Below are positions 1 to 12,547 of a stretch of 64,000 nt of DNA, one piece after another. The translations under genes and the position numbers were made by a program. Within the stretch, counting starts at the first letter, position 1; every line of letters begins with the position of its first letter. The notes under the pieces were generated by a model that was not told the DNA's origin, made no database searches, and saw only the letters and a program-made list of their open reading frames with translations. The stretch covers positions 1,119,534 to 1,183,533 of the forward strand of contig NZ_SOBT01000008.1 of assembly GCF_004364935.1 (NCBI RefSeq). Direction: 5' to 3'. The stretch comes from Panacagrimonas perspica (lineage in GTDB: Bacteria > Pseudomonadota > Gammaproteobacteria > Nevskiales > Nevskiaceae).

Positions 1-799
1 TGTCGCCGGCAAGCGACGCCGCGCGAAGGCGACCGACGTCGCCGCTGATTCCCGACATGCCGAGCAGGCCGCTGCGCTGCTCGAGCACCTCGCGCAGTTC
101 GATCGCGCTGATGCCATGGGCAATCTGAAGTTCCAGCAGCAGGCCCGGATCCAGCGATCCGCTGCGCGTGGCCATGACCGGGCCCTCGATCGGCGTGTAG
201 CCCATGGTCGTGTCGAGCGACCGTCCGTCGCGGACCGCGGTCACCGAGCATCCGCTGCCCAGGTGACAGACCACCAGGCGCGAGGGCATCCGCCCCAGAA
301 TCTCTCGCGCACGCTTCACCGCCCACTCGACGCTGAGGCCGTGGAAGCCGAAGCGGCGCAGGCCCCAGCGCCGGGTCCATTCGAGCGGAATGGCGTACGC
401 CGCCGCCGCGTCCGGAATCGTCGTATGAAAGGTCGTGTCGAAGCACGCGAATTGAGGAACGTCCGGAAGCGAATCCTGCACGACCTCGATCGCATGCAGC
501 GCCATCGGCAGATGCAAGGGTGCCAGTGGGACGAGGGCTTTCAATCCACCCTGGACCTGAGGATCGATGCGGACGGCCTGGCGGTAACGATTGCCCCCAT
601 GGACCAGACGATGGCCGATCGCATCCGAGGGCACAAAGCTTCTCAGCAGCAATCGGAGCTGTCTGCGCCGGTCGTCCGCCGCTTCCGATGCCCAGCTCAG
701 GCTGCCGCTCTCGACGACCTCTCCGCCGGCGCCGAACGCCGTCCACTTGAAAGTCGACGAGCCTGCGTTGAGCGTCAGGACGCGCATGCGCGATCGCAT
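1..799 (-). CDS. ackA: acetate kinase, C-terminus beyond the window edge
   Basis: Acetate kinase, which interconverts acetyl phosphate plus ADP with acetate plus ATP. The visible N-terminal part carries the family signatures in order: NAGSSTFKW near the start, VPLAPLH, CFDTTFH, RRWGLRRFGFHGLS and the phosphate-binding HLGSGCSVTAV block. The gene runs off the left edge, so the C-terminal third is missing from view. It lies directly downstream of phosphoketolase and the two overlap by one base (TGATG at 797-801), so they are probably translationally coupled. The start could instead be the ATG at 787, which begins MRVLTLNAGSS and fits the family N-terminus better. Together the pair turns sugar phosphate into acetate with ATP gain. 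Confidence 0.93.
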   Translation of the reverse strand, partial: MRSRMRVLTLNAGSSTFKWTAFGAGGEVVESGSLSWASEAADDRRRQLRLLLRSFVPSDAIGHRLVHGGNRYRQAVRIDPQVQGGLKALVPLAPLHLPMALHAIEVVQDSLPDVPQFACFDTTFHTTIPDAAAAYAIPLEWTRRWGLRRFGFHGLSVEWAVKRAREILGRMPSRLVVCHLGSGCSVTAVRDGRSLDTTMGYTPIEGPVMATRSGSLDPGLLLELQIAHGISAIELREVLEQRSGLLGMSGISGDVGRLRAASLAGD

Positions 800-3216
800 C
801 AGCGAGTCCACTGCCATTTACGGATCTCGGGAAGGTCTTCGCCGTGCTGCCGGATGTAGGTCGCGTGTTCGGCCAGCCGCGCTTCGAGCATCGCCCTGAG
901 TGCCGGTGCGCGCTTTGCGAGGCGGGGTACCCGGCTGACGGCATTCATCGCAAGGTGGAAGCGATCGAGGCGGTTGAGCACCGCCATGTCGAAAGGCGTC
1001 GTCGTGGTGCCCTGCTCCATGAACCCGTGCACATGGAAGTGCGCATGGTTCGCACGGCTGTAGACCAGCCGATGGATCAGCGAGGGGTAGCCATGGAACG
1101 CGAAGATCACCGGCCGGCGTCGCGTGAAGAGACCGATGAACGCGCGCCCGCCGAGGCCGTGTGGATGCCGGTCGACCGATTCGAGACGCATCAGGTCGAC
1201 CACGTTGACGACACGTATCTTCAGGTCCGGCGCCATCTGCCGGAGCAGCTGCACGGCCGCCAGCGTCTCGAGCGTCGGGACGTCGCCGCAGCACGCCATC
1301 ACCACGTCCGGTTCGCCCGGATCACTGGCCCAATCCCAAACGCCCGCGCCCGCGGCGCAGTGGGCCCGAGCCTGCTCCATCGACAGCCACTGCGGCGCCG
1401 GCTGCTTGCCGGCGACCACCGCGTTGATCAGCCCGCGCGAACGCAGACAGTGGTCGGTGATGCACAGCAGCGTGTTCGCGTCCGGCGGCAGGTACAAGCG
1501 CACCACGTCCGCGGACTTGGACGCCAGCATGTCCAGCACGCCCGGGTCCTGGTGGCTGAAGCCATTGTGGTCCTGACGCCAGACATGCGAGGTGAGCAAC
1601 AGGTTGAGTGAGGCCACCGGGACCCGCCAGGGCAGCTCGCGCGACACCTTCAGCCACTTGGCGTGCTGGATGAGCATCGAGGCCACCACGTGGATGAAGG
1701 CTTCGTAGCAGGAAAAGAATCCATGACGACCGCTGAGCAGGTACCCCTCCAGCCAGCCTTCACACTGGTGCTCGCTGAGCACCTCCATGACACGACCGGA
1801 CGGCGAAAGATGGTCGTCGGTCGGCTCGATCCGGCCCATGAAGCAACGGTCCGTGACTTCGAGAACGGCACCCCAGCGATTCGACGCGGTCTCGTCCGGA
1901 CTGAACACGCGAAAACAGTCCATGTTCCTGCGCACGACCTCGCGGATGAATCCACCCTGCACGCGCGTCGCCTCCGCGGTGACGCTTCCGGGCCGGTCGA
2001 CGGCAACGGCGTGATCCCTCACGTCGGGCAGATCGAGTGCGCGCAGCAGGCGCCCTCCATTGGCGTGCGGATTGGCGCTCATGCGGCGCCCACCCTGCGG
2101 CGCAAGCGCGAGCAGGTCGGCGCCGGGGCGGCCGGTGCCGTCGAAAAGTTCCTCGGGCCGGTAGCTGCGCATCCAGGCGTCCAGGCATTCGAGATGGCCC
2201 GGCGCATCGAAATCCGACAACGGCACCTGGTGCGAACGCCAGGAGTCTTCGACGCGCAGTCCGTCGACCGTGGCAGGTCCGGTCCATCCCTTGGGACTGA
2301 CCAGTACGATCATCGGCCAGTGCGGCCGCGCGCGATCCGATGTGCCGCGCGCGCGCTGCTGGAACTGGCGGATCATGTCCATCGCCTGGTCGAGCACGGC
2401 GGCCATCTGGCTGTGCATGCCTGCCCTGTCGCCGGCGTCGACGTACATCGGCTCCCAGCCATAACCGCGGAACAGCTGCGTCAGCTCCTCGCGCGGGATG
2501 CGCGAGAGCACCGTCGGCCCCGCGATCTTGTAGCCGTTCAGGTGCAGGATCGGCAGCACGGCGCCATCGCGCGAGGGATCCAGGAACTTGTTCGAGTGCC
2601 AAGCCGTCGCCAGCGGGCCGGTCTCGGCTTCACCGTCGCCGACCACGCAGGCCACCACGAGGTCCGGGTTGTCGAAGGCTGCGCCGAACGCGTGGGACAG
2701 CGCGTAACCGAGTTCGCCACCCTCGTGGATCGATCCCGGCGTGTCCGGTGACGCATGGCTGGGAATCCCGCCGGGAAAAGAGAACTGGCGAAACAGGCGG
2801 CGCACGCCCTGCGCGTCCTGCGTGACGGCCGGATAGATCTCGCTGTACGTCCCTTCGAGCCACGCGTTGGCCACCACGGCCGGGCCACCGTGCCCGGGGC
2901 CGGCCATGAAGATCAGGTTGGCATCCCGCTGCCGGATGACCCGGTTCAGATGCGCGTACACGAAGTTCAACCCGGGTGTCGTACCCCAGTGGCCGAGCAG
3001 GCGCGGCTTGATGTCGTCGCGCCAAATGGGGCGCTCGAGAAGCGGATTGTCGAGCAGGTAGATCTGCCCGACCGAAAGATAGTTGGCCGCGCGCCACCAG
3101 CGGTCGACGGCCCGCAGATCCGGCCTGGCAGGTTCGACATCGGAAGGAACCTGCGACGGCCCGTCGGGCATCGCGATGGAACCGGGTACATCGTTGCGGG
3201 ACGTGAACGCATTCAT
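799..3216 (-). CDS. xfp: xylulose-5-phosphate/fructose-6-phosphate phosphoketolase
   Basis: A thiamine-diphosphate enzyme that cleaves xylulose 5-phosphate or fructose 6-phosphate with phosphate to give acetyl phosphate. Diagnostic blocks include [17 protein letters not shown], the ThDP motif [14 protein letters not shown] and [12 protein letters not shown]. The length of about 805 residues is normal. The frame is open back to 3249, but I prefer the ATG at 3216 because an FNR/ANR-like box is centred 63 nt upstream of it. A promoter using that box would start transcription downstream of the 3249 ATG. Acetate kinase follows immediately, so acetyl phosphate is its obvious product. The box suggests induction at low oxygen. 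Confidence 0.95.
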
Positions 3217-3272
3217 GGTGACTGGCTCGGCGAAAGACGGCTGCAGCATCGCAGCGCAGCGATCTCCGGTCG

Positions 3273-3286
3273 TTGACGTGAATCAA
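3273..3286 (-). promoter_or_regulatory. FNR/ANR-like box upstream of phosphoketolase
   Basis: The + strand reads TTGACGTGAATCAA, a TTGAC-N4-ATCAA palindrome with one departure from the FNR/ANR consensus. Its centre is 63.5 nt upstream of the preferred phosphoketolase start. That places a transcription start about 20 nt before the ATG if the box sits at -41.5. Confidence 0.7.
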
Positions 3287-3313
3287 CGGTGAGGTTCCCG
3301 CACCGCATCGGCG

Positions 3314-3327
3314 TTGACTCAGGTCAT
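3314..3327 (+). promoter_or_regulatory. FNR/ANR-like box upstream of zinc-finger gene
   Basis: TTGACTCAGGTCAT matches TTGAY-N4-RTCAA except for the last base. Its centre is 59.5 nt upstream of the ATG at 3380, the same geometry as the other boxes in this region. Confidence 0.55.
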
Positions 3328-3379
3328 CGACCTCGCCTTGGCTTCGGACCAGGCTTCGACAGGAAAAAGGAGCCACACC

Positions 3380-3679
3380 ATGTCCGCCTCTCCCGTGAAT
3401 GCGACACGCCGCACGCCCACCGCCGAACGTGACGCGCCTCGGCATAAAGGGACGCCGCTTCCCGACGGCATCCCGACTCCCGCTTATCTCGCCGCGATCC
3501 GCGCCAGCGTCCCATCGCGCACCTGCGCTGTCTGTGGAGACGCCATCGGTGCCGCACGCCTGACGCTGCAGCCTCAGGCGACGACCTGCGCCTGGTGCGC
3601 GCCCCCTCGCGATCAGGCGAACGCGATACCGAAGAGCAGTCCCGCTGCGATGAGCGCGAACGGACCGATGAGCCGCTGA
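3380..3679 (+). CDS. small DksA/TraR-type zinc-finger protein
   Basis: A 99-residue protein with a C4 zinc finger of the DksA/TraR kind: CAVC, 17 residues, then CAWC, with the ARL and P-x-A spacing seen in that family. The N-terminal half is basic and proline-rich and has no recognised domain. The ATG at 3380 is preferred over upstream codons because AAAGGAG lies at 3366-3372. The 3' end overlaps the convergent DUF4010 gene by 67 nt. A role as an RNA polymerase-binding or stress modulator is inferred from the finger alone; the coiled-coil acidic tip of DksA is absent. The FNR/ANR-like box upstream suggests low-oxygen expression. Confidence 0.65.
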   Translation: MSASPVNATRRTPTAERDAPRHKGTPLPDGIPTPAYLAAIRASVPSRTCAVCGDAIGAARLTLQPQATTCAWCAPPRDQANAIPKSSPAAMSANGPMSR

Positions 3680-4842
3680 GCCAGCGGCCGGCCCGCGACG
3701 ACGGCGATCATGCCGAACTTGAAGGCGAGGCTCGCGATGTAGGCAATCACCATCGCGATCGCCAGCGAGGCGGGGGTCAAGGTTCCCGCGGCGACCATGT
3801 GCATCGTGGACAGTCCGATCGCATCGAGGTCGATCAGGCCGGACACGGCAGCGGCGAGATAGACACCCTGCGTTCCGATCCGATCGTTGAGCCAGGCGAC
3901 AACCAGAATCACGATCGCATACAGCGCAGCGAAACCCAGCGCAGCCAGCATCTCGCCCGGATTGCTCACGCCCAAGTCGTGGCGCGACCCGTTCCGCAGG
4001 TAGCTGCGACCGGCCGCGATCGCACCCGGCGCCAGTCCGGCGCCAAGGACCGGCAGCATGGACCGCAGCGCACCCGGACACACGACCGCGGTGAAGGCCG
4101 CCAGCCGCAGCAGTACGACCAGGTTGGCGAGCAGGATGACGACCTGCGCGCTATCCGCTTGCTCGCGATCCTCACGGACCTGGCGCGCGAAGGTCAGGCT
4201 TGTCGCAGTGCTCGACACCAGCCCCCCGAGCACGCCCACAAACAAGGCGCCGCGGCCCGATCCGAGCAATTGCAGCAACAGGTACCCGGTGAGGCCGATG
4301 CCGGATATCAGCACCACCATCCACCAGATCCGGTAAGGGTTGAGCGAATCGTAGGGACCGTATCCGGCATCCGGCAGGAGTGGCAGCACGAGCAGGCTGA
4401 CCGCGGCGAATCTCAGGATGCTGCGCACATCGGCCGGCTTCAGGCGCGTCGCGAATCCTTCAAGCTCGGGCTTGAAGTGCAGCAGGGCCGTGGCGGCCAA
4501 GCCCAGCAGCACCGGCGGCAACACGGGGCCGATCCAGATGGCGGCGCCGAGGCAGAAGCACAGCATCACTGCCACGGTCGACGTGGTGCCGGCATCGTGG
4601 CTGGCGTCCCTGCCGTGCAGCGCCGCGATCATCATGGCGCCCAGCATCACCAGACCCGCCGGCAACAGCCATTGGACCCCATGATCGATCAACATTGCGC
4701 CGACCGATCCCAGCATCGCAACCAGTGCGTACGTGCGCACGCCGGCTTGCGTTCCGGGGTTGCGTTCGCGCACGAGTCCCATCAGAAAGCCGACGCCCAC
4801 GCTCGCGGAAAGACGCGACAGTGATTCGGACAGCTCCATCAT
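3613..4842 (-). CDS. MgtC/SapB-DUF4010 family membrane protein
   Basis: A 409-residue integral membrane protein. The N-terminus has the MgtC-like block GFLMGLVRERNPG followed by GVRTYALVAMLGSVGAML. The rest is a run of hydrophobic helices typical of the DUF4010 half. Proteins of this two-part type sit in the inner membrane; their transported substrate is not settled, so no substrate is claimed. The start overlaps the stop of the acetyltransferase gene by four bases (ATGA at 4839-4842), so it is the last gene of a deacetylase-acetyltransferase-DUF4010 operon. A second ATG follows immediately. Confidence 0.8.
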   Translation of the reverse strand: MMELSESLSRLSASVGVGFLMGLVRERNPGTQAGVRTYALVAMLGSVGAMLIDHGVQWLLPAGLVMLGAMMIAALHGRDASHDAGTTSTVAVMLCFCLGAAIWIGPVLPPVLLGLAATALLHFKPELEGFATRLKPADVRSILRFAAVSLLVLPLLPDAGYGPYDSLNPYRIWWMVVLISGIGLTGYLLLQLLGSGRGALFVGVLGGLVSSTATSLTFARQVREDREQADSAQVVILLANLVVLLRLAAFTAVVCPGALRSMLPVLGAGLAPGAIAAGRSYLRNGSRHDLGVSNPGEMLAALGFAALYAIVILVVAWLNDRIGTQGVYLAAAVSGLIDLDAIGLSTMHMVAAGTLTPASLAIAMVIAYIASLAFKFGMIAVVAGRPLAQRLIGPFALIAAGLLFGIAFA

Positions 4843-7145
4843 TGCCCTCCCAGCCGCAACTCGACGCGCCGGCAGTACGCTTCGTCCGGGTCGGGGGAAT
4901 CCGAAAATCCCAGGCGCGCCGCCAGGCCGAGCATCGCCTCGTTCTCCTGCAGCACGAGGCCCCAGATCGTTCCTATCTCCCGCGCACGGGCCAGATCGAT
5001 CAGGCGCTGGAGCAGGTATCGTCCCAGTCCCTGGCGTGCGCAGTCCTGGTGGACCAACAGCGCGAACTCCGCGGCGCGTCCGTCGGGATCGGCGATCAGT
5101 GTGCCCAGCGCTCGCATGCGCCCGGTGCCGCCTTCCTCGTAAACCACCAGCGCGAGCTCGCGGTCGTAATCGATCTGCGTCATCCGCGCCGCCATCGCGT
5201 GGCTGAAATGGCGCAGGCAGGCGAAGAAGCGAAGGCGGACCGTTTGCGGGTCGAGGCTTTCCAGCAACGAGATCAGCGCCGGCTCATCCTCCGGCCGGAT
5301 CGCACGCACCGCGACGCGCCGCTGGTCCGATAAAGCGAGGTGTGCTGATAGAGCCGCCGGGAACGGCGCGAGCGCGAACCGATCGCGGTCCTGCAGCGAC
5401 GTCGGCGTCAGCCGGATGCGGGCGTCGCGCACCACCATCATCTGGTCGCCACGACGCGCGAACCGCACATCGAGGGACGCTACTCTGGGCTGGTCCATCG
5501 CAAGCCGGGAGAGCTGCAGCAAGGCGCGCCGGACCTCGTTACGATCTTGATGGATCTTGGCGGCCTCGCCTTCCGCAGCGTCGAGCAGGCGGTCGGCGAG
5601 CAGATCGTCGAGCGGAAGAATGCCGTACGCGATCTGCGTGCCGGGCGCCATCCGCTGCACGCGCAGGTACATGCCGACCTCCGCATGGCAGTCGAGCCGC
5701 ACTCGCAGCTCCGGTGACTCCGAAGACCAGCGCGGCACAAGCTGCAGGCCATAGGCCGTCAGCAGGTCCAACGCCGCATCGGAACCCGCATCGGTTGCGC
5801 CGGCCGCATGTCGACGCAACATGGCCGCCACCGACGCGGCATCGGCCGGGACCAAGCCGCTGGCCGAAGGCGTTCGGGTGAGCAGCTCGCGGTTCCTGGC
5901 GTAATCCCGGCGATACCGGATGGCGCGGCAGGCGGCCTGAGGGGAGGTGAAGGTCGCCTGCCCGGCTTCGGACGAGATGCGGCGCGCGGGGGCTGCGGTT
6001 TCGAGGCCCAGCCACACGCACATCAGGCGCGCCCCCAGCGCTGCCTGCTTGATCGCGAGCGCCACCGGCTCATGCGGTTGTCCGACGGCCGGGCTGCGCA
6101 CGAACAACAGCGCGTCGAGCGAAGGCGCATCGAGCAACTCGCGGATCGCGGCCACGGTCTGCACCTCGTCCGTCTCGCCAATGTCGATCGTGCCGGAACC
6201 GAAGCGCAGGCTCGGCAACTGCCCGACAAGAGCTGCGCGGCGGGTACGGTCGATTTCGGCCAAGGTCAGTCCTTCGCGAAGAACCGCGTCAGCGGTCAAC
6301 GCGCAGATCGCGGCGCCGTTGGCCACGACCAGCACCCGTGCCTGCTGCATGACCGGCAGGCGTTCCAGCGCGGCAATCGAGTCGAACAGTCCCGGCAGAT
6401 CCGCGACTTCCACCATGCCTGCGCGCGCGAATGCTGCCGAGCGCACAGGATCGGCGCCCGCTGCCGCGTGGTCGGCGAGACGTGTCTGCAGGATCACGGT
6501 GGGCTTGACGCGTGCACAAGCACGCGCCGCAGACATGAACTTGCGACCGCTTCGGATGCGACCGATCTCGACCGCCACCGACCGCGTGTTCCTATCATTG
6601 GCCGCGTAGTCGAGCAGATCGGCAACGTCGACATCACCTTCGCCGCCAGTCGTGGCGATCCACGAGAATCCGATCCGTCGGCCTGCAGCCCAGTCCGCCG
6701 CCGCCGCGGCCACCGAGCGCGACTGCACGATCAACGCCAATGAGCCCGGCAGCGGCGATTGCGCGAGCATCGATACGTCGGGACCGCCCCCGCGGGCGAA
6801 GCCGATGCTGCGCGGACCCAGCAGGCGGACCCTGTTGCGTCGCGCTGCCTCGAGGACTGCGGGCGTCGGCGCGTCCGGTTGCATCCAGAGCACTGCCCGG
6901 CAATCCAGATCGACGAGGCGCCGCATCGTCGCCGCATCGGCGAAGCGCGGATCGCCCAAGATCGCCAGCAGCGGACGTTCAGCCGAGCAATTTTCCGGCA
7001 CGCCGTTGGGCCATCGGTGAAGCTGAAGCCGGGCCGACCCCGCCGCCAGCTTGTCCAACAGTCCTTGCTGCACCGGGTTGGCAGGAACACCGACCCATGC
7101 GGCCGACCGCGGGCCCAACAGCGCGTCGAGATTCCGGACCGTCAT
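4839..7145 (-). CDS. PatZ-like GNAT protein acetyltransferase with acyl-CoA synthetase-like domains
   Basis: A 768-residue protein. Residues 1-125 form a CoA-binding Rossmann-like domain (LDALLGPRSAAWVG), followed by succinyl-CoA ligase-like domains to about 430. An ATP-grasp-like segment runs to about 600, and a C-terminal GNAT domain covers about 605-768 with the acetyl-CoA loop QDCARQGLGRYLLQRL. This is the layout of Pat/PatZ lysine acetyltransferases, which acetylate acetyl-CoA synthetase and other proteins. It is six bases downstream of an HDAC-like deacetylase and overlaps the next gene, so writer and eraser are co-transcribed. Local acetyl-phosphate enzymes suggest a role in acetate metabolism and its control. 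An NDP-forming acyl-CoA synthetase activity is the alternative. Confidence 0.85.
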   Translation of the reverse strand: MTVRNLDALLGPRSAAWVGVPANPVQQGLLDKLAAGSARLQLHRWPNGVPENCSAERPLLAILGDPRFADAATMRRLVDLDCRAVLWMQPDAPTPAVLEAARRNRVRLLGPRSIGFARGGGPDVSMLAQSPLPGSLALIVQSRSVAAAAADWAAGRRIGFSWIATTGGEGDVDVADLLDYAANDRNTRSVAVEIGRIRSGRKFMSAARACARVKPTVILQTRLADHAAAGADPVRSAAFARAGMVEVADLPGLFDSIAALERLPVMQQARVLVVANGAAICALTADAVLREGLTLAEIDRTRRAALVGQLPSLRFGSGTIDIGETDEVQTVAAIRELLDAPSLDALLFVRSPAVGQPHEPVALAIKQAALGARLMCVWLGLETAAPARRISSEAGQATFTSPQAACRAIRYRRDYARNRELLTRTPSASGLVPADAASVAAMLRRHAAGATDAGSDAALDLLTAYGLQLVPRWSSESPELRVRLDCHAEVGMYLRVQRMAPGTQIAYGILPLDDLLADRLLDAAEGEAAKIHQDRNEVRRALLQLSRLAMDQPRVASLDVRFARRGDQMMVVRDARIRLTPTSLQDRDRFALAPFPAALSAHLALSDQRRVAVRAIRPEDEPALISLLESLDPQTVRLRFFACLRHFSHAMAARMTQIDYDRELALVVYEEGGTGRMRALGTLIADPDGRAAEFALLVHQDCARQGLGRYLLQRLIDLARAREIGTIWGLVLQENEAMLGLAARLGFSDSPDPDEAYCRRVELRLGGQ

Positions 7146-7151
7146 CGCCGT

Positions 7152-8084
7152 TCAGAGACCCAGGAAGGGCTGCAGGAAGAATTCGACGCTTCGCGCCAGC
7201 GCATGCAGATCGTAGCCGCCTTCGAGGGTCGCCACTACGCGCCCCTGGCAGAACTGCGCAGCCACGTCGCGGATCACCGTTCCGATCCAGCGGAAGTCGT
7301 CGTAGCCCAGGCGCAGGTCGCCGAGCGGATCCTGCGCGTGGGCGTCGAAGCCGGCAGACACCAGGATCAGTTCCGGCTGCTGACGCTCCAGGGCGGGAAG
7401 CCAGAATGTCGTGACAGCCGTACGAAATGCTTTGCTTCCACTCCGGGCGGCCAGCGGAACGTCGATCAGGTGAGGTGAACGCGGCGCACCCGCCCACTGC
7501 GGGTAGAGCGGATGCTGGTAGGTCGAGTACAGCCAGACTCGTGGATCGTCGAGAAAGATGTCGGCGGTGCCATTGCCGTAATGCAGGTCGAAATCCAGAA
7601 CCGCCACCCGCTCGATTCCATTCGCAAGCGCGTGGGCCGCGCCGACCGCCACGTTGTTGAAGAGACAGAAGCCCATCGCGCGATCGCGCTCCGCGTGATG
7701 ACCTGGCGGTCGCACCGCGCAGAAGGCCAGGCCCGCGCGATCCGACAGCATCATGTCCACCGCTCGCACCGCGGCGCCGGTCGCCCGAAGCGCGGCTGGC
7801 TTGCTGTGCTGCATGAATACCGTGTCGCCGTCTATCACCCGCGCCTCGCCCTCGTGATGGCCTGAAAGCATCCAGTCCACCAGACGTCGGCTATGCACGC
7901 GCAGGAGTTGCTCCTGTTCGGCCTCCGGCGCGGATTCGCGCACCATGAAGTCCATCAGTCCGCTCGCGATCAGGCGATCCTCGATGGCCGCGATCCGCGA
8001 AGAACTTTCCGGGTGACCGGCACCCATGTCGTGCCTCGAGCACGCCGGATGGGTGATCCACGCAACGGGCTTCACGACGCTCAT
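7152..8084 (-). CDS. HDAC-like (AcuC/class II type) deacetylase
   Basis: A zinc-dependent deacetylase of the arginase/HDAC fold, 310 residues. Visible motifs are HPESSSRI near the N-terminus, RPPGHHAERDRAMGFC with the active-site histidine pair, the zinc-ligand block DFDLHYGNGT, and SAGFDAHAQDPLG with the third zinc ligand. The start at 8084 is chosen over the longer frame to 8150 because AGGAAG precedes it and an FNR/ANR-like box is centred 59.5 nt upstream. The frame from 8150 would begin inside that box. It heads the operon with the PatZ-like acetyltransferase, so removal of acetyl groups from lysines is likely. Acetylpolyamine or acetoin-type substrates cannot be excluded. Confidence 0.85.
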   Translation of the reverse strand: MSVVKPVAWITHPACSRHDMGAGHPESSSRIAAIEDRLIASGLMDFMVRESAPEAEQEQLLRVHSRRLVDWMLSGHHEGEARVIDGDTVFMQHSKPAALRATGAAVRAVDMMLSDRAGLAFCAVRPPGHHAERDRAMGFCLFNNVAVGAAHALANGIERVAVLDFDLHYGNGTADIFLDDPRVWLYSTYQHPLYPQWAGAPRSPHLIDVPLAARSGSKAFRTAVTTFWLPALERQQPELILVSAGFDAHAQDPLGDLRLGYDDFRWIGTVIRDVAAQFCQGRVVATLEGGYDLHALARSVEFFLQPFLGL

Positions 8085-8136
8085 GGGGCTTCCTGCTCGG
8101 GTGGCTGAACTTTGTGCGGGAGCCGGCCGGGGTGCG

Positions 8137-8150
8137 CTGACCTGGGTCAA
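8137..8150 (-). promoter_or_regulatory. FNR/ANR-like box upstream of deacetylase operon
   Basis: Read on the minus strand: TTGACCCAGGTCAG, one base off TTGAY-N4-RTCAA. The centre is 59.5 nt before the deacetylase ATG. It is 23 bp from a second box facing the divergent gene. Confidence 0.65.
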
Positions 8151-8173
8151 TCGACGGGCACGTCGCCGCGGCG

Positions 8174-8187
8174 TTGATCCAGATCAA
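8174..8187 (+). promoter_or_regulatory. perfect FNR/ANR box upstream of the L,D-transpeptidase gene
   Basis: TTGATCCAGATCAA is an exact match to TTGAT-N4-ATCAA. Its centre is 57.5 nt upstream of the ATG at 8238. This is the best of the five boxes. Confidence 0.8.
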
Positions 8188-8237
8188 GGAGTGCCCGTGG
8201 TCCGCCTGAGATCCTGCCGGCACGAAAAGGAACCCAG

Positions 8238-10262
8238 ATGACGTTGATTGCGACACGGCTGAATCTTCTACGGCAGGCGCGCTCGGAATTTCGAGATCGC
8301 CGGGATCGGCTGCGGCACGACCTGACGAGACCCGATGGCTCAGTCGACGAGGACTTCGCCAGGCAGGCGACGCGGGGCGAGCACGCGATCGCCCGCGTCG
8401 AACGCGTCCAGGGAGCCGAATGCGAATGCTGTGGCAGGCTGATCTTGCGCAAGCGCTTAGGAGCCCTGCTCCCTGCCCCGCTATCGGCGCGCCGCAGAAC
8501 CGTGATCTCGATCCATCCCCCGGTACTGCCGATCCGCCGGTTCGGCAGCCTGTGCATCGACGCCAGTTCGCGCATGTCGCTGCGGACTCGGCTTCTGGGC
8601 ACGGTCCCGCCGGTGACGCCTGGGGCCAATCGGGCCGGCGGCAGCAGCGGTCGCTTCGCGTTGGCCGTGCTCATAGGGCTTTGGGTTCACGCCAGCGTGG
8701 TGGCAGCGGCGCAAACGGACGCGACCCGCGACGTGCTGGCACTCCGTGTCGATCGCGAGCATGCGGCAGTTGTCACGGGCGGCTCGGTGGCAGGACCCAC
8801 GGTACTGGAAAGCGCCATCGCCACCTTCTACGAGCGCAGGGACGCCGCGCCGGCGTGGCTCGGACAAGCCGATCGCCTGTCCGCATTGCGCAGGAACCTC
8901 CAGGGACTACGCTTCGACGGCCTCTCGCCAGATTCCTACGGCCTCGCGCTGCTCGATGATGCGGCGCTGCGCCCACCTGTCGACCCGACGGCGCGAGCCG
9001 AGCTCGACTGGTCCATCACGGAAGGCTTTCTGAAGAGCCTGCTGCATCTGTACCGCGGAAAGCTGGACCCGCGAGCGCTCAGCTCGATCTGGAACGTCGA
9101 ACGCCGGCAGATCGATATCCAGCAAGGACTGGCATCGGCCATCAGCAGTGTCGAGGAAGGCACCCTCGACGCCGTGTACGCAGAGGCGAGACCCGAGCAC
9201 CGAATCTATCGCGACCTTCGCGACGGGCTGAAGCGTCTTGTCCAGATCGCCGACCACGGCGGATGGCCCACCATTCCCGGCGGTCCGACGATCGACGCAG
9301 GCCACTCCGATGTCCGCGTTCCCGCGCTGCGTCGGCGGCTGGCGCTCGGCGGCTACGACACCGGGCCCGCCGATGCGGCCAGCGAGATCTTTGACCCCGC
9401 GCTGGAATCTGCACTGCGCTCGTTCCAGAAGGAGCAGTATCTCGACGTCGACGGTCGACTCGGCTCCAGAACTCGCGCGGCCCTCAATATTTCCACGCAG
9501 ACCCGGATCGAGCAGATTCGCGCGAATCTCGAGCGCGCGCGCTGGCTGCTGCACGACCTGCCCGGCGATTTCGTCCTGGTCGACATCGCCGGATTCCGCG
9601 TGCGCTACATTCGCAACGGCGAGGTGATCTTCACGTCGCGCATTCAGGTCGGACAGCCCGACAGGCGCACCCCGATATTCCGTGCCGAAATCACCGAGCT
9701 AACCATCAACCCGCATTGGATCGTGCCGCCGACGATCCTGGAACACGACGTGCTGCCGGCCCTGAGTCGCGAGCCGGACTACTTGCGCAACCACCACCTG
9801 CGTGCGTTCGACGGACGTGGCGCCGAAGTCGACGCCGGCCACGTTGACTGGCGCCACGCCGGCGACGTGATCCTGCGCCAGGACGCGGGACCCGACGGCG
9901 CGCTGGGCCGCATCGCGATCCGCTTTCCGAACCGCTTCGCCGTCTATCTGCACGAGACGCCGCATACCGAGCTGTTCTCGTCGGCACGACGCGCCTTCAG
10001 TTCCGGCTGCATTCGCGTCGAACATCCCTTCGATCTGGCCGCGATCCTGATGGAGAACGATCAGCACTGGACCCGTGAGGCGCTGGACGATGCAGCCGCC
10101 ACAGGCACCACGATGTCGATTCCCCTGCCTCGGTCGATCCCGATCCTGCTGATGTATTGGACCGTGGACGTTCACGCCGACGGGCGCGTCTCGTACAAGC
10201 CCGACGTATACGGGCTCGACAGACTCACGCTGGGAGCAATCGACGCGCGTATCGGAGGCTGA
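8238..10262 (+). CDS. L,D-transpeptidase (YcbB-like) with TraR/DksA-like N-terminal extension
   Basis: A 674-residue reading frame in two parts. Residues 1-75 resemble a TraR/DksA stress protein: a charged helical segment, then GAECECCGRLILRKRL with only the first Cys pair of the zinc finger. From about residue 113 the protein looks like an exported L,D-transpeptidase: a hydrophobic anchor at about 138-158, a peptidoglycan-binding domain at about 360-415 and a YkuD domain ending in the catalytic SSGCIRVEHP (Cys near 590). It would cross-link meso-diaminopimelate in the periplasm. The ATG at 8238 has a good ribosome site (AAAAGGAA at 8225-8232). An internal ATG at 8574 would give the enzyme alone. 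No stop codon separates the parts. Confidence 0.8.
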   Translation: MTLIATRLNLLRQARSEFRDRRDRLRHDLTRPDGSVDEDFARQATRGEHAIARVERVQGAECECCGRLILRKRLGALLPAPLSARRRTVISIHPPVLPIRRFGSLCIDASSRMSLRTRLLGTVPPVTPGANRAGGSSGRFALAVLIGLWVHASVVAAAQTDATRDVLALRVDREHAAVVTGGSVAGPTVLESAIATFYERRDAAPAWLGQADRLSALRRNLQGLRFDGLSPDSYGLALLDDAALRPPVDPTARAELDWSITEGFLKSLLHLYRGKLDPRALSSIWNVERRQIDIQQGLASAISSVEEGTLDAVYAEARPEHRIYRDLRDGLKRLVQIADHGGWPTIPGGPTIDAGHSDVRVPALRRRLALGGYDTGPADAASEIFDPALESALRSFQKEQYLDVDGRLGSRTRAALNISTQTRIEQIRANLERARWLLHDLPGDFVLVDIAGFRVRYIRNGEVIFTSRIQVGQPDRRTPIFRAEITELTINPHWIVPPTILEHDVLPALSREPDYLRNHHLRAFDGRGAEVDAGHVDWRHAGDVILRQDAGPDGALGRIAIRFPNRFAVYLHETPHTELFSSARRAFSSGCIRVEHPFDLAAILMENDQHWTREALDDAAATGTTMSIPLPRSIPILLMYWTVDVHADGRVSYKPDVYGLDRLTLGAIDARIGG

Positions 10263-10372
10263 TGCGGCGTGCCCGTGCCGCGCGGTATGAAGCTTGTGCG
10301 TGGGCGCTCGGCACCGTCCTGGCTTCGGGTCGATGATTGCGCCGGCCAGCGGCGCGCAGGCAAGGTGACGGC

Positions 10373-11845
10373 GTGACCGGACCTTTCGACCCCACTACGC
10401 TGGAGGCACTCGGAGCGGGACTCCATGTCCTGCTGGCCGGCTCGGTGGCGGCCCATGCCTTGCTGCACAAGCATGATCCACGCTCCGCCTGGGCGTGGAT
10501 TCTCGCGTGCCTGCTGGTCCCGGTGATCGGAACGCTTTTGTATTTCTGGTTCGGCGTCAATCGCGTCGAGCGCAGAGCGCGGGTGGAACGCGGCGTGCCG
10601 GCCCCTTCCGCTGCGCTGCCGGCGGACGATCCGCTACCGCCCATGTCGGACTCCATCGCTGAGGAAGTCAGAGAGCTGATGCGGATCGGCCGCTCGGTCA
10701 CGCGGCGCCCGCTCGTCGGCGGCAACCGGATCACACCGCTGCACAACGGCGAGGCGGCCTATCCCGCGATGCTAGAGGCGATCGACGAGGCCCGCACGCG
10801 CGTCTGGCTGATGAGCTACATCTTCGACAACGGCCGTATCGGGCAGCGCTTTGCCGAAGCGCTCGCGGCCGCGCGCCGCCGCGGCGTACAGGTCAGCGTG
10901 CTGCTGGACGGCATCGGCGACCTCGGCTTGTCCCGCGGCAGCCGGATCTTGCGGCACTACGGGATCCCGGTCGGGATGTTCATGCCGCCCCGGCTGCTGC
11001 CGCCGCTGTGGCACGTGAACTTGCGCAATCATCGCAAGCTGCTGTGTGTCGACGGGGCGCTCGCCTTCGTCGGTGGCATGAACATCGGTGACCATCACCT
11101 GCTTCCTAGTACGCTCGAAGGCTGGACCGGCTACCGCCGGCGTCGCGGGTATGCGGAAGATCTGCACTTCCGCATCGAAGGCCCGGTGGTGAAGCAATTC
11201 GACCAAGTGTTTACCGACGATTGGCAGATCACCACTGGCGAGCACTTGCCTAGTGGCGACGCCATTGACGCCATTGACGCCAGAGCGGCCGACGGCGGCG
11301 CAGCCTGTCGCGTCATCACGGATGGCCCGAACGAAGATTTCGGCCGGCTACAGGTCCTGCTGCTAGGCGCCTTGGCCAACGCGCACCACGCCGTGCGGAT
11401 CATGACGCCGTACTTCGTGCCGACGCCGGAGCTGTCGAGCGCGCTCGGGGTGGCGGCGCGCAGAGGAGTCGAGGTGTCACTGCTGCTGCCCCGGCGTGGC
11501 AATCACTGGTGGCTCGACGCGGCAACCCGCCGCTGGCTGATGCAGTTCGACGCGACGCCGATTCAAGTCTACTTGCGACCCGCGCCGTTCGCGCACAGCA
11601 AGCTGTTCCTGGTCGACGACTATTACGCCGTGATCGGATCGGCAAACCTCGACCCGCGCAGCCTGCGCCTCAATTTCGAACTGACGCTCGAAACCTACGA
11701 CATCGGATTCGCATCGCGCTTGCGGACGCACTTCGATTCGGTTCTCGCCACCAGCCAGCTGCTCGATATCGAAGACCTGCGCCGTCGCCCGCTGCTCGCG
11801 CGCTTGTGGGATTCGGCGTTCTGGCTGTTCTCGCCATATCTCTGA
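10373..11845 (+). CDS. cardiolipin synthase (PLD family)
   Basis: A membrane phospholipase-D-type enzyme that joins two phosphatidylglycerols into cardiolipin. Two N-terminal membrane helices (around residues 8-30 and 40-60) are followed by two HKD motifs: NHRKLLCVDG near residue 218 and AHSKLFLVDD near 406, each with the downstream GGMN or GSAN block. The length of 490 residues is normal for the family. A GTG start at 10373 is chosen because AAGGTGA precedes it by six bases; the longer frame begins with TTG at 10337. It follows the L,D-transpeptidase in the same direction after 110 nt, so the two envelope genes may be co-transcribed. Confidence 0.88.
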   Translation: MTGPFDPTTLEALGAGLHVLLAGSVAAHALLHKHDPRSAWAWILACLLVPVIGTLLYFWFGVNRVERRARVERGVPAPSAALPADDPLPPMSDSIAEEVRELMRIGRSVTRRPLVGGNRITPLHNGEAAYPAMLEAIDEARTRVWLMSYIFDNGRIGQRFAEALAAARRRGVQVSVLLDGIGDLGLSRGSRILRHYGIPVGMFMPPRLLPPLWHVNLRNHRKLLCVDGALAFVGGMNIGDHHLLPSTLEGWTGYRRRRGYAEDLHFRIEGPVVKQFDQVFTDDWQITTGEHLPSGDAIDAIDARAADGGAACRVITDGPNEDFGRLQVLLLGALANAHHAVRIMTPYFVPTPELSSALGVAARRGVEVSLLLPRRGNHWWLDAATRRWLMQFDATPIQVYLRPAPFAHSKLFLVDDYYAVIGSANLDPRSLRLNFELTLETYDIGFASRLRTHFDSVLATSQLLDIEDLRRRPLLARLWDSAFWLFSPYL

Positions 11846-12048
11846 TCGCGCGTGATGCGGACTCCAGGTTCCGGCCAGGTGCAAAGCGGATTCCACGCCG
11901 AAAAAGCAAGCCAAGCCAGCGAGCCGCGGAGGCGTCCCGACGAACCGGACGTGCCCGGACCGCAACAGGGCCTGGCGCTCGAACTTCGGACGAACGACGT
12001 GCCGAAGGGCCTGCGGCCAGTGCAAACGAGGATGGGGTCATCTCACGA

Positions 12049-12062
12049 TTGACCCGCGTCAA
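12049..12062 (+). promoter_or_regulatory. FNR/ANR-like box upstream of the Usp gene
   Basis: TTGACCCGCGTCAA is a perfect inverted repeat of the TTGAC-N4-GTCAA form. The centre is 63.5 nt before the ATG at 12119. A possible -10 element, GAATGT, lies at 12085-12090. The rest of the 270-nt gap before it shows nothing I recognise. Confidence 0.7.
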
Positions 12063-12118
12063 TGCGACGGAACACGAGACGCGCGAATGTCCCGCAACCC
12101 CATCCGCGAGAAGTTGCC

Positions 12119-12547
12119 ATGCAAAAGGTGTTGGTTGCATTCGATGGTTCGGAATCGTCGATCCGCGCGCTTCGATTCGTGGTTGAACAGCCGAAGGCTG
12201 CGCGCCCGTCCGAACTCCATCTCCTCAATGTGCAGGACTACCCGATCGTCATCAGCGAATACGTGACCAGCTCGATGATCGAGGCGATCCGCAGGGGCCA
12301 GACGGAGCACAGCCGGGAAGTGCTGGCCCGAGGAGTCGCGCTGCTGGAATCCAGCGGGATTCCGCACCACGAACACGTCGTCATCGGATTTCCGGGAACG
12401 GCCATCACCGAACAGGCTGCCGCACTCGGATGTGGGCAGATCGTGATGGGCACCCGTGGACTGGGGATGGTCAAGGGCCTCGTCCTGGGTAGCGTGGCGC
12501 AGAGGGTGATCCACCTTTCACCTGTCCCCGTGACGCTCGTGAAGTAA
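12119..12547 (+). CDS. universal stress protein (UspA family)
   Basis: A 142-residue cytoplasmic Usp domain. It opens with MQKVLVAFDGSESSIRAL, and the C-terminal half has the nucleotide-binding pattern G-x2-G-x9-G-S in MGTRGLGMVKGLVLGS, followed by a VTLVK end. These residues mark the ATP-binding Usp subfamily. The ATG at 12119 is preferred because it is preceded by GAGAAG and fits the family N-terminus; upstream codons lie inside the FNR/ANR-like box. Single-domain Usp proteins with such boxes are typical of low-oxygen survival regulons in proteobacteria. The cellular partner is unknown. Confidence 0.9.
   Translation: MQKVLVAFDGSESSIRALRFVVEQPKAARPSELHLLNVQDYPIVISEYVTSSMIEAIRRGQTEHSREVLARGVALLESSGIPHHEHVVIGFPGTAITEQAAALGCGQIVMGTRGLGMVKGLVLGSVAQRVIHLSPVPVTLVK

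Follow-up and report, generated by a model that had tools for sequence, protein, structure and literature searches.

Five FNR/ANR-type boxes lie within the first part of the window (the whole 64,000-nucleotide stretch of DNA that was analysed, C1:1119534-1183533 of a 5.4-Mb genome), and they raise the question of whether they act as class II activator sites, which protein would bind them, and how far the low-oxygen region to which they might belong extends. We consider it highly probable that all five act as class II sites at which an oxygen-labile FNR activates transcription, and that they are the rightmost part of a 41-kb island carrying almost the whole FNR regulon.

Boxes and predicted promoters

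All five boxes match TTGAY-N4-RTCAA with at most one mismatch at the positions that a first, sequence-only reading had listed, three of them exactly and two with one mismatch. The boxes and the promoter elements predicted from them are as follows (window positions):

3273..3286, minus strand: exact FNR box TTGACGTGAATCAA, phosphoketolase gene (xfp)
3245-3250, minus strand: predicted -10 GATGCT of the xfp promoter; predicted transcription start 3238
3314..3327, plus strand: FNR box with one mismatch, TTGACTCAGGTCAT, zinc-finger gene
3350-3355, plus strand: predicted -10 CAGGCT of the zinc-finger gene promoter; predicted transcription start 3362
8137..8150, minus strand: FNR box with one mismatch, CTGACCTGGGTCAA, deacetylase operon
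8109-8114, minus strand: predicted -10 CAAAGT of the deacetylase operon promoter; predicted transcription start 8102
8174..8187, plus strand: exact FNR box TTGATCCAGATCAA, zinc-finger/L,D-transpeptidase ORF
8210-8215, plus strand: predicted -10 GATCCT of the L,D-transpeptidase ORF promoter; predicted transcription start 8222
12049..12062, plus strand: exact FNR box TTGACCCGCGTCAA, last Usp gene
12085-12090, plus strand: predicted -10 GAATGT of the last Usp promoter; predicted transcription start 12097

The same reading had placed the box centres 57-64 nt upstream of the start codons, and on recomputation this distance was 57.5-63.5 nt for all five, given an xfp start at 3216 (63.5 nt to the xfp ATG at 3216, 59.5 nt to the zinc-finger gene start at 3380, 59.5 nt to the deacetylase start at 8084, 57.5 nt to the L,D-transpeptidase start at 8238 and 63.5 nt to the Usp start at 12119). 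It is likely that xfp starts at 3216, since the ATG of an alternative longer ORF, which begins at 3249, sits within the predicted -10 element. When all 19 box-gene pairs were considered, 11 fell at 57.5-63.5 nt, some of them after an internal start codon had been picked, and four distances exceeded 80 nt.

The proposal of class II promoters was backed by a test that is independent of start codons, in which the gene-strand sequence following each island box was read. With the box centre at -41.5, the -10 hexamer has to occupy exactly positions 23-28, and an A at position 24 together with a T at position 28 from the box (nAnnnT) was found in 16 of 18 island promoters, which is the class II arrangement of a box at -41.5 from a predicted transcription start with its -10 element. 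The next best offset gave 4, and the maximum over 2000 random-offset trials was 8. The two exceptions were the fixL box, which has no -10 on the gene side, and usp14, in which the A is missing. That the -10 elements are poor is as expected of activator-dependent promoters. The furthest upstream ATG of three genes, xfp, hemN and ccoN, precedes the predicted transcription start, which favours internal start codons for them. At a PAS-GGDEF gene (C1:1098325) the predicted transcription start falls within one base of an ATG, and use of this ATG might give a leaderless transcript, the alternative being a GTG start further down.

Genome-wide, the combination of box and -10 had 20 matches, of which the island holds 18, and the reversed pattern had none. 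Among the six exact boxes outside the island, only the one at C1:2225251 has a -10, and the one at C2:226365 is inside a gene. The box and -10 at C1:2225251 precede genes (C1:2223147-2225264) for a membrane protein, a cytochrome c with eight haem motifs and a b-type-cytochrome-like protein. In all regions read, which hold 69 exact boxes, a -10 was found on at least one side of 55 and on both sides of 10, where a -10 on the second side by chance would give about 1 (P ~1e-7), some of these 10 coming from related genomes and so not being independent cases. It is possible that such single boxes act in both directions, as class II sites of divergent genes. In this genome two-sided boxes are at C1:1104930 and 1117111, upstream of the window, and others are in relatives.

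Extent and gene content of the island

In genome searches with fixed patterns, the exact pattern was found at 21 sites, 15 of which lie within C1:1090659-1131595 (41 kb; binomial probability ~8e-28), and the reversed pattern, used as a control, at 4. The sequence-only reading had drawn a low-oxygen island at 3273-12062; an island it is, and its size has to be revised from 9 kb to about 41 kb, as the island begins ~29 kb before the window, which contains only its last 12 kb. Within the window alone the count of boxes is only moderately unusual (2.8 sites with no more than one mismatch would be expected and 8 occur, five of the 8 being the boxes listed above). What the 41-kb island holds is nearly all of the strong FNR-type sites of the genome, along with the regulator gene.

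Gene content was taken from gene calls and family scans (Pfam, NCBIfam); the acetate kinase, OmpW-like and cardiolipin-synthase-like proteins are named by resemblance only. The regulatory genes of the island encode FixL and FixJ homologues at its left end, a PAS-GGDEF-EAL protein, an FNR-like protein and a PAS-GGDEF protein, and its respiratory and haem genes are hemN, ccoN/O/P/G and a copper-type P-type ATPase (CcoI-like) with small companion genes. Other upstream genes code for Usp proteins, an ion channel, phosphoribosyl-pyrophosphate synthetase, thymidine phosphorylase and a beta-CASP metallo-hydrolase; a BON protein and a flavodoxin-fold reductase are further members. The right end carries phosphoketolase, a zinc-finger protein, MgtC, CoA-ligase/GNAT, deacetylase, L,D-transpeptidase and the last Usp, and the genes of this part of the window are:

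1..817, minus strand: acetate kinase, gene call named by resemblance; 3' end before the window (gene C1:1119208-1120350)
799..3216, minus strand: phosphoketolase (xfp), Pfam XFP_N/XFP/XFP_C and NCBIfam phosphoketolase; likely ATG 3216
3380..3679, plus strand: small DksA/TraR-type zinc-finger protein of 99 aa, Pfam zf-dskA_traR 27.6 bits (cut-off 24.9)
3613..4842, minus strand: MgtC/DUF4010 membrane protein (Pfam family scan), third gene of the deacetylase operon
4839..7145, minus strand: CoA-ligase-like protein with a C-terminal GNAT domain (Pat-like), from family scans
7152..8084, minus strand: histone-deacetylase-family protein, Pfam Hist_deacetyl 5.9e-77
8238..10262, plus strand: L,D-transpeptidase ORF, Pfam YkuD, Scaffold and PG_binding_1, with a Zn1-like N-terminal stretch
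10373..11845, plus strand: cardiolipin-synthase-like protein, gene call named by resemblance
12119..12547, plus strand: universal stress protein (Usp), Pfam Usp

The acetate kinase gene overlaps the end of xfp, so that the two are probably in the same operon. The 3' end of the zinc-finger gene (3380..3679) overlaps the end of mgtC on the opposite strand, and no box of its own was found for the cardiolipin-synthase-like gene (10373..11845). In the deacetylase operon the gene order is identical in the relatives G041 and G052, and the deacetylase gene is also preceded by a box in G041, G051, G052 and G055. A second deacetylase, at C1:1500573-1501466, is 70% identical to the island copy, and a deacetylase of the congener G029 is 71% identical to the island copy.

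A further DksA-like gene of the island, Zn1, is located at C1:1100068, downstream of a box at 1100003, and its product aligns with the N-terminus of the L,D-transpeptidase over 100 positions (36% identity, E 3e-11). The N-terminal ~80 residues encoded by the L,D-transpeptidase ORF (window 8238-8480) are Zn1-like and lack the second Cys pair of Zn1, and a signal-peptide-like stretch comes after them; the ORF has the appearance of an in-frame fusion between a shortened zinc-finger gene and a transpeptidase gene.

Signs of a mobile element were sought at the island, and none came from GC content or from a tRNA search. When the flanking DNA was searched in two congeners for an empty site, the matches were scattered, and gain and loss of the island were thus indistinguishable by its flanks.

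The regulator and its distribution in the family

The absence of an FNR-family gene had been named as an outcome that would overturn the first reading. Such a gene was found inside the island:

C1:1095044-1095748, about 24 kb upstream of the window: FNR-like regulator, best PDB match FNR, 1.5e-26

The protein contains HTH_Crp_2 and cNMP_binding domains, as in the CRP/FNR fold. It has the cysteines C15, C18 and C23 and a distal Cys that aligns with that of the solved FNR; all four are kept in the family homologues, and they make up the set of three N-terminal and one distal Cys that would serve as [4Fe-4S] ligands. The N-terminal Cys are spaced x2, x4 here and x2, x5 in E. coli FNR. We counted its recognition helix, E-T-V-C-R, as being of the FNR type (E-x2-S-R), the Cys standing where E. 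coli FNR has Ser; most homologues have Cys at this position and two have Ser. The protein scored 110 bits with the NCBIfam Fnr model, which represents the enterobacterial Fnr subfamily and has a cut-off of 228, and for this reason it is, judged by its sequence, a distant FNR outside that subfamily. In the FixL homologue the first PAS domain can be aligned with the haem domains of FixL proteins, and the alignment covers the segment that contains the haem histidine.

In 58 genomes of the family, with Nevskiaceae/Nevskiales as the nearest named relatives, a close FNR homologue was found in 21, ccoN in 32 and both in 18 (p 8e-4). The number of box and -10 sites per genome had a median of 14 in those with ccoN and 1 in those without (58 genomes, p 5e-9), and the two sampled congeners, which have neither the regulator nor the ccoN oxidase gene, had 0 and 1. 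Family relatives preserve the boxes with their -10 spacing, the regulator and a large part of the gene set, with the deacetylase operon, FixLJ, FNR, cco genes, hemN and Usp recurring together with boxes (G043 and G047, in which automatic gene calls missed genes, were left out of the gene-content comparison). G004, from another genus, has a similarly dense island, in which 12 of its 24 exact boxes fall within 34 kb alongside FixLJ, hemN, cco and two FNR-like genes. In other relatives the regulon is spread out; G041, for example, has 41 exact boxes, and the 60 kb that were read around its FNR contain 6 of these. At deacetylase loci outside the family, exact boxes were mostly absent.

Proposed regulation and alternatives

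In the mechanism that we propose, FNR would acquire a [4Fe-4S] cluster and dimerise as oxygen falls, and the dimer would bind each box at -41.5 and recruit RNA polymerase to promoters which, having weak -10 elements (nAnnnT), would depend on the activator. Upstream of the window this would induce the genes for the cbb3 oxidase and its assembly, hemN for oxygen-independent haem synthesis, and those for Usp proteins. Within the window, xfp-ackA would yield acetyl phosphate and ATP from sugar phosphates, and the other targets would be the deacetylase/CoA-ligase-GNAT/mgtC operon, the DksA-like zinc-finger protein, the L,D-transpeptidase and Usp. These predicted target functions fit low oxygen. The FixL/FixJ pair, with its FixL-type haem PAS, probably provides a second oxygen input, and a link from FixJ to fnr is a guess.

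It could be argued that activation of the island at low oxygen is mainly the work of FixJ and that the FNR boxes merely modulate it, as the FixL/FixJ pair with its haem PAS is encoded at the island's left end and no box at up to one mismatch was found upstream of fnr. We regard this as unlikely, since it is the FNR box, and not another site, that places the -10 in 16 of 18 promoters. Binding of the boxes by another CRP/FNR-type protein, either CRP/Clp-like or of the NO-responsive DNR type, so that they would not report oxygen, was also considered; the genome does encode other CRP-family proteins, and DNR proteins recognize much the same box as FNR. This seems very unlikely, because none of the other full-length CRP-family proteins has the cysteine set and their recognition helices are CRP-like or divergent, the sole FNR-like protein is encoded in the island, and box counts track ccoN across the family. 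Sites with one mismatch are common, at 342 for the whole genome and 148 with the reversed control, and the suggestion that the boxes arose by chance in a GC-rich genome has a negligible probability, being ruled out by the clustering, the exact -10 spacing and the pattern of presence and absence over 58 genomes.

Comparison with known systems and significance

The FNR regulon proposed here resembles several systems that have been described. In Herbaspirillum seropedicae, Fnr1 and Fnr3 use a class II site (at -42 for fnr1), cbb3 genes and ompW1 lie near fnr1, and usp genes are among the most induced (PMC5934665); the class II site, the cbb3 and OmpW-type genes near fnr and the usp genes are all shared. 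H. seropedicae has three Fnr orthologues (PMC5934665) and a larger regulon, whereas here there is one FNR, with nearly all strong sites in one 41-kb block. No exact boxes were found around the Herbaspirillum deacetylase gene in the stretch examined. The lxa locus of Burkholderia cenocepacia, described from expression, is a block of ~50 genes with six Usp and a BON-domain protein; its expression rises at low oxygen, and it is tied to anoxic persistence (PMC6127331). As described, it is likewise one block with many Usp and a BON-domain protein. An Anr is needed for anoxic survival of B. cenocepacia and its gene, BCAM0049, is outside the lxa locus (PMC9104464), while the regulator gene here is within the island. 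With the rhizobial FixLJ-FixK cascade the island shares a FixL with a haem PAS, FixJ, a CRP/FNR protein and cbb3 oxidase genes, but the CRP/FNR protein here has FNR-type cysteines and the host is a gammaproteobacterium.

The type of regulator, the box, the class II geometry and most of the target functions are thus already known, and what stands out is that nearly all strong sites are in one block together with the regulator. As a tentative and rather doubtful extension, the island might be a self-contained, transferable low-oxygen module that enters lineages lacking FNR, with some single palindromic boxes acting as two-way class II sites. If the module reading were true, regulator, sensors, targets and promoters would move jointly and a recipient would gain a microaerobic programme in one step. 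For a family that has been little studied, the analysis provides an FNR regulon that is defined from sequence, nearly complete and contained in one 41-kb piece, together with a simple rule, box then 22 bp then nAnnnT, from which start sites can be predicted to the base. It would also link the phosphoketolase-acetate kinase pair, the deacetylase/acyltransferase operon and DksA-like proteins to low oxygen. With a near-whole network in one block, these predictions are easy to test, including the portability of the whole low-oxygen programme. Among the relatives, G014 and G024 each have 77 exact boxes and ~50 box and -10 sites, with three and two FNR homologues, respectively, and their FNR regulons appear unusually large.
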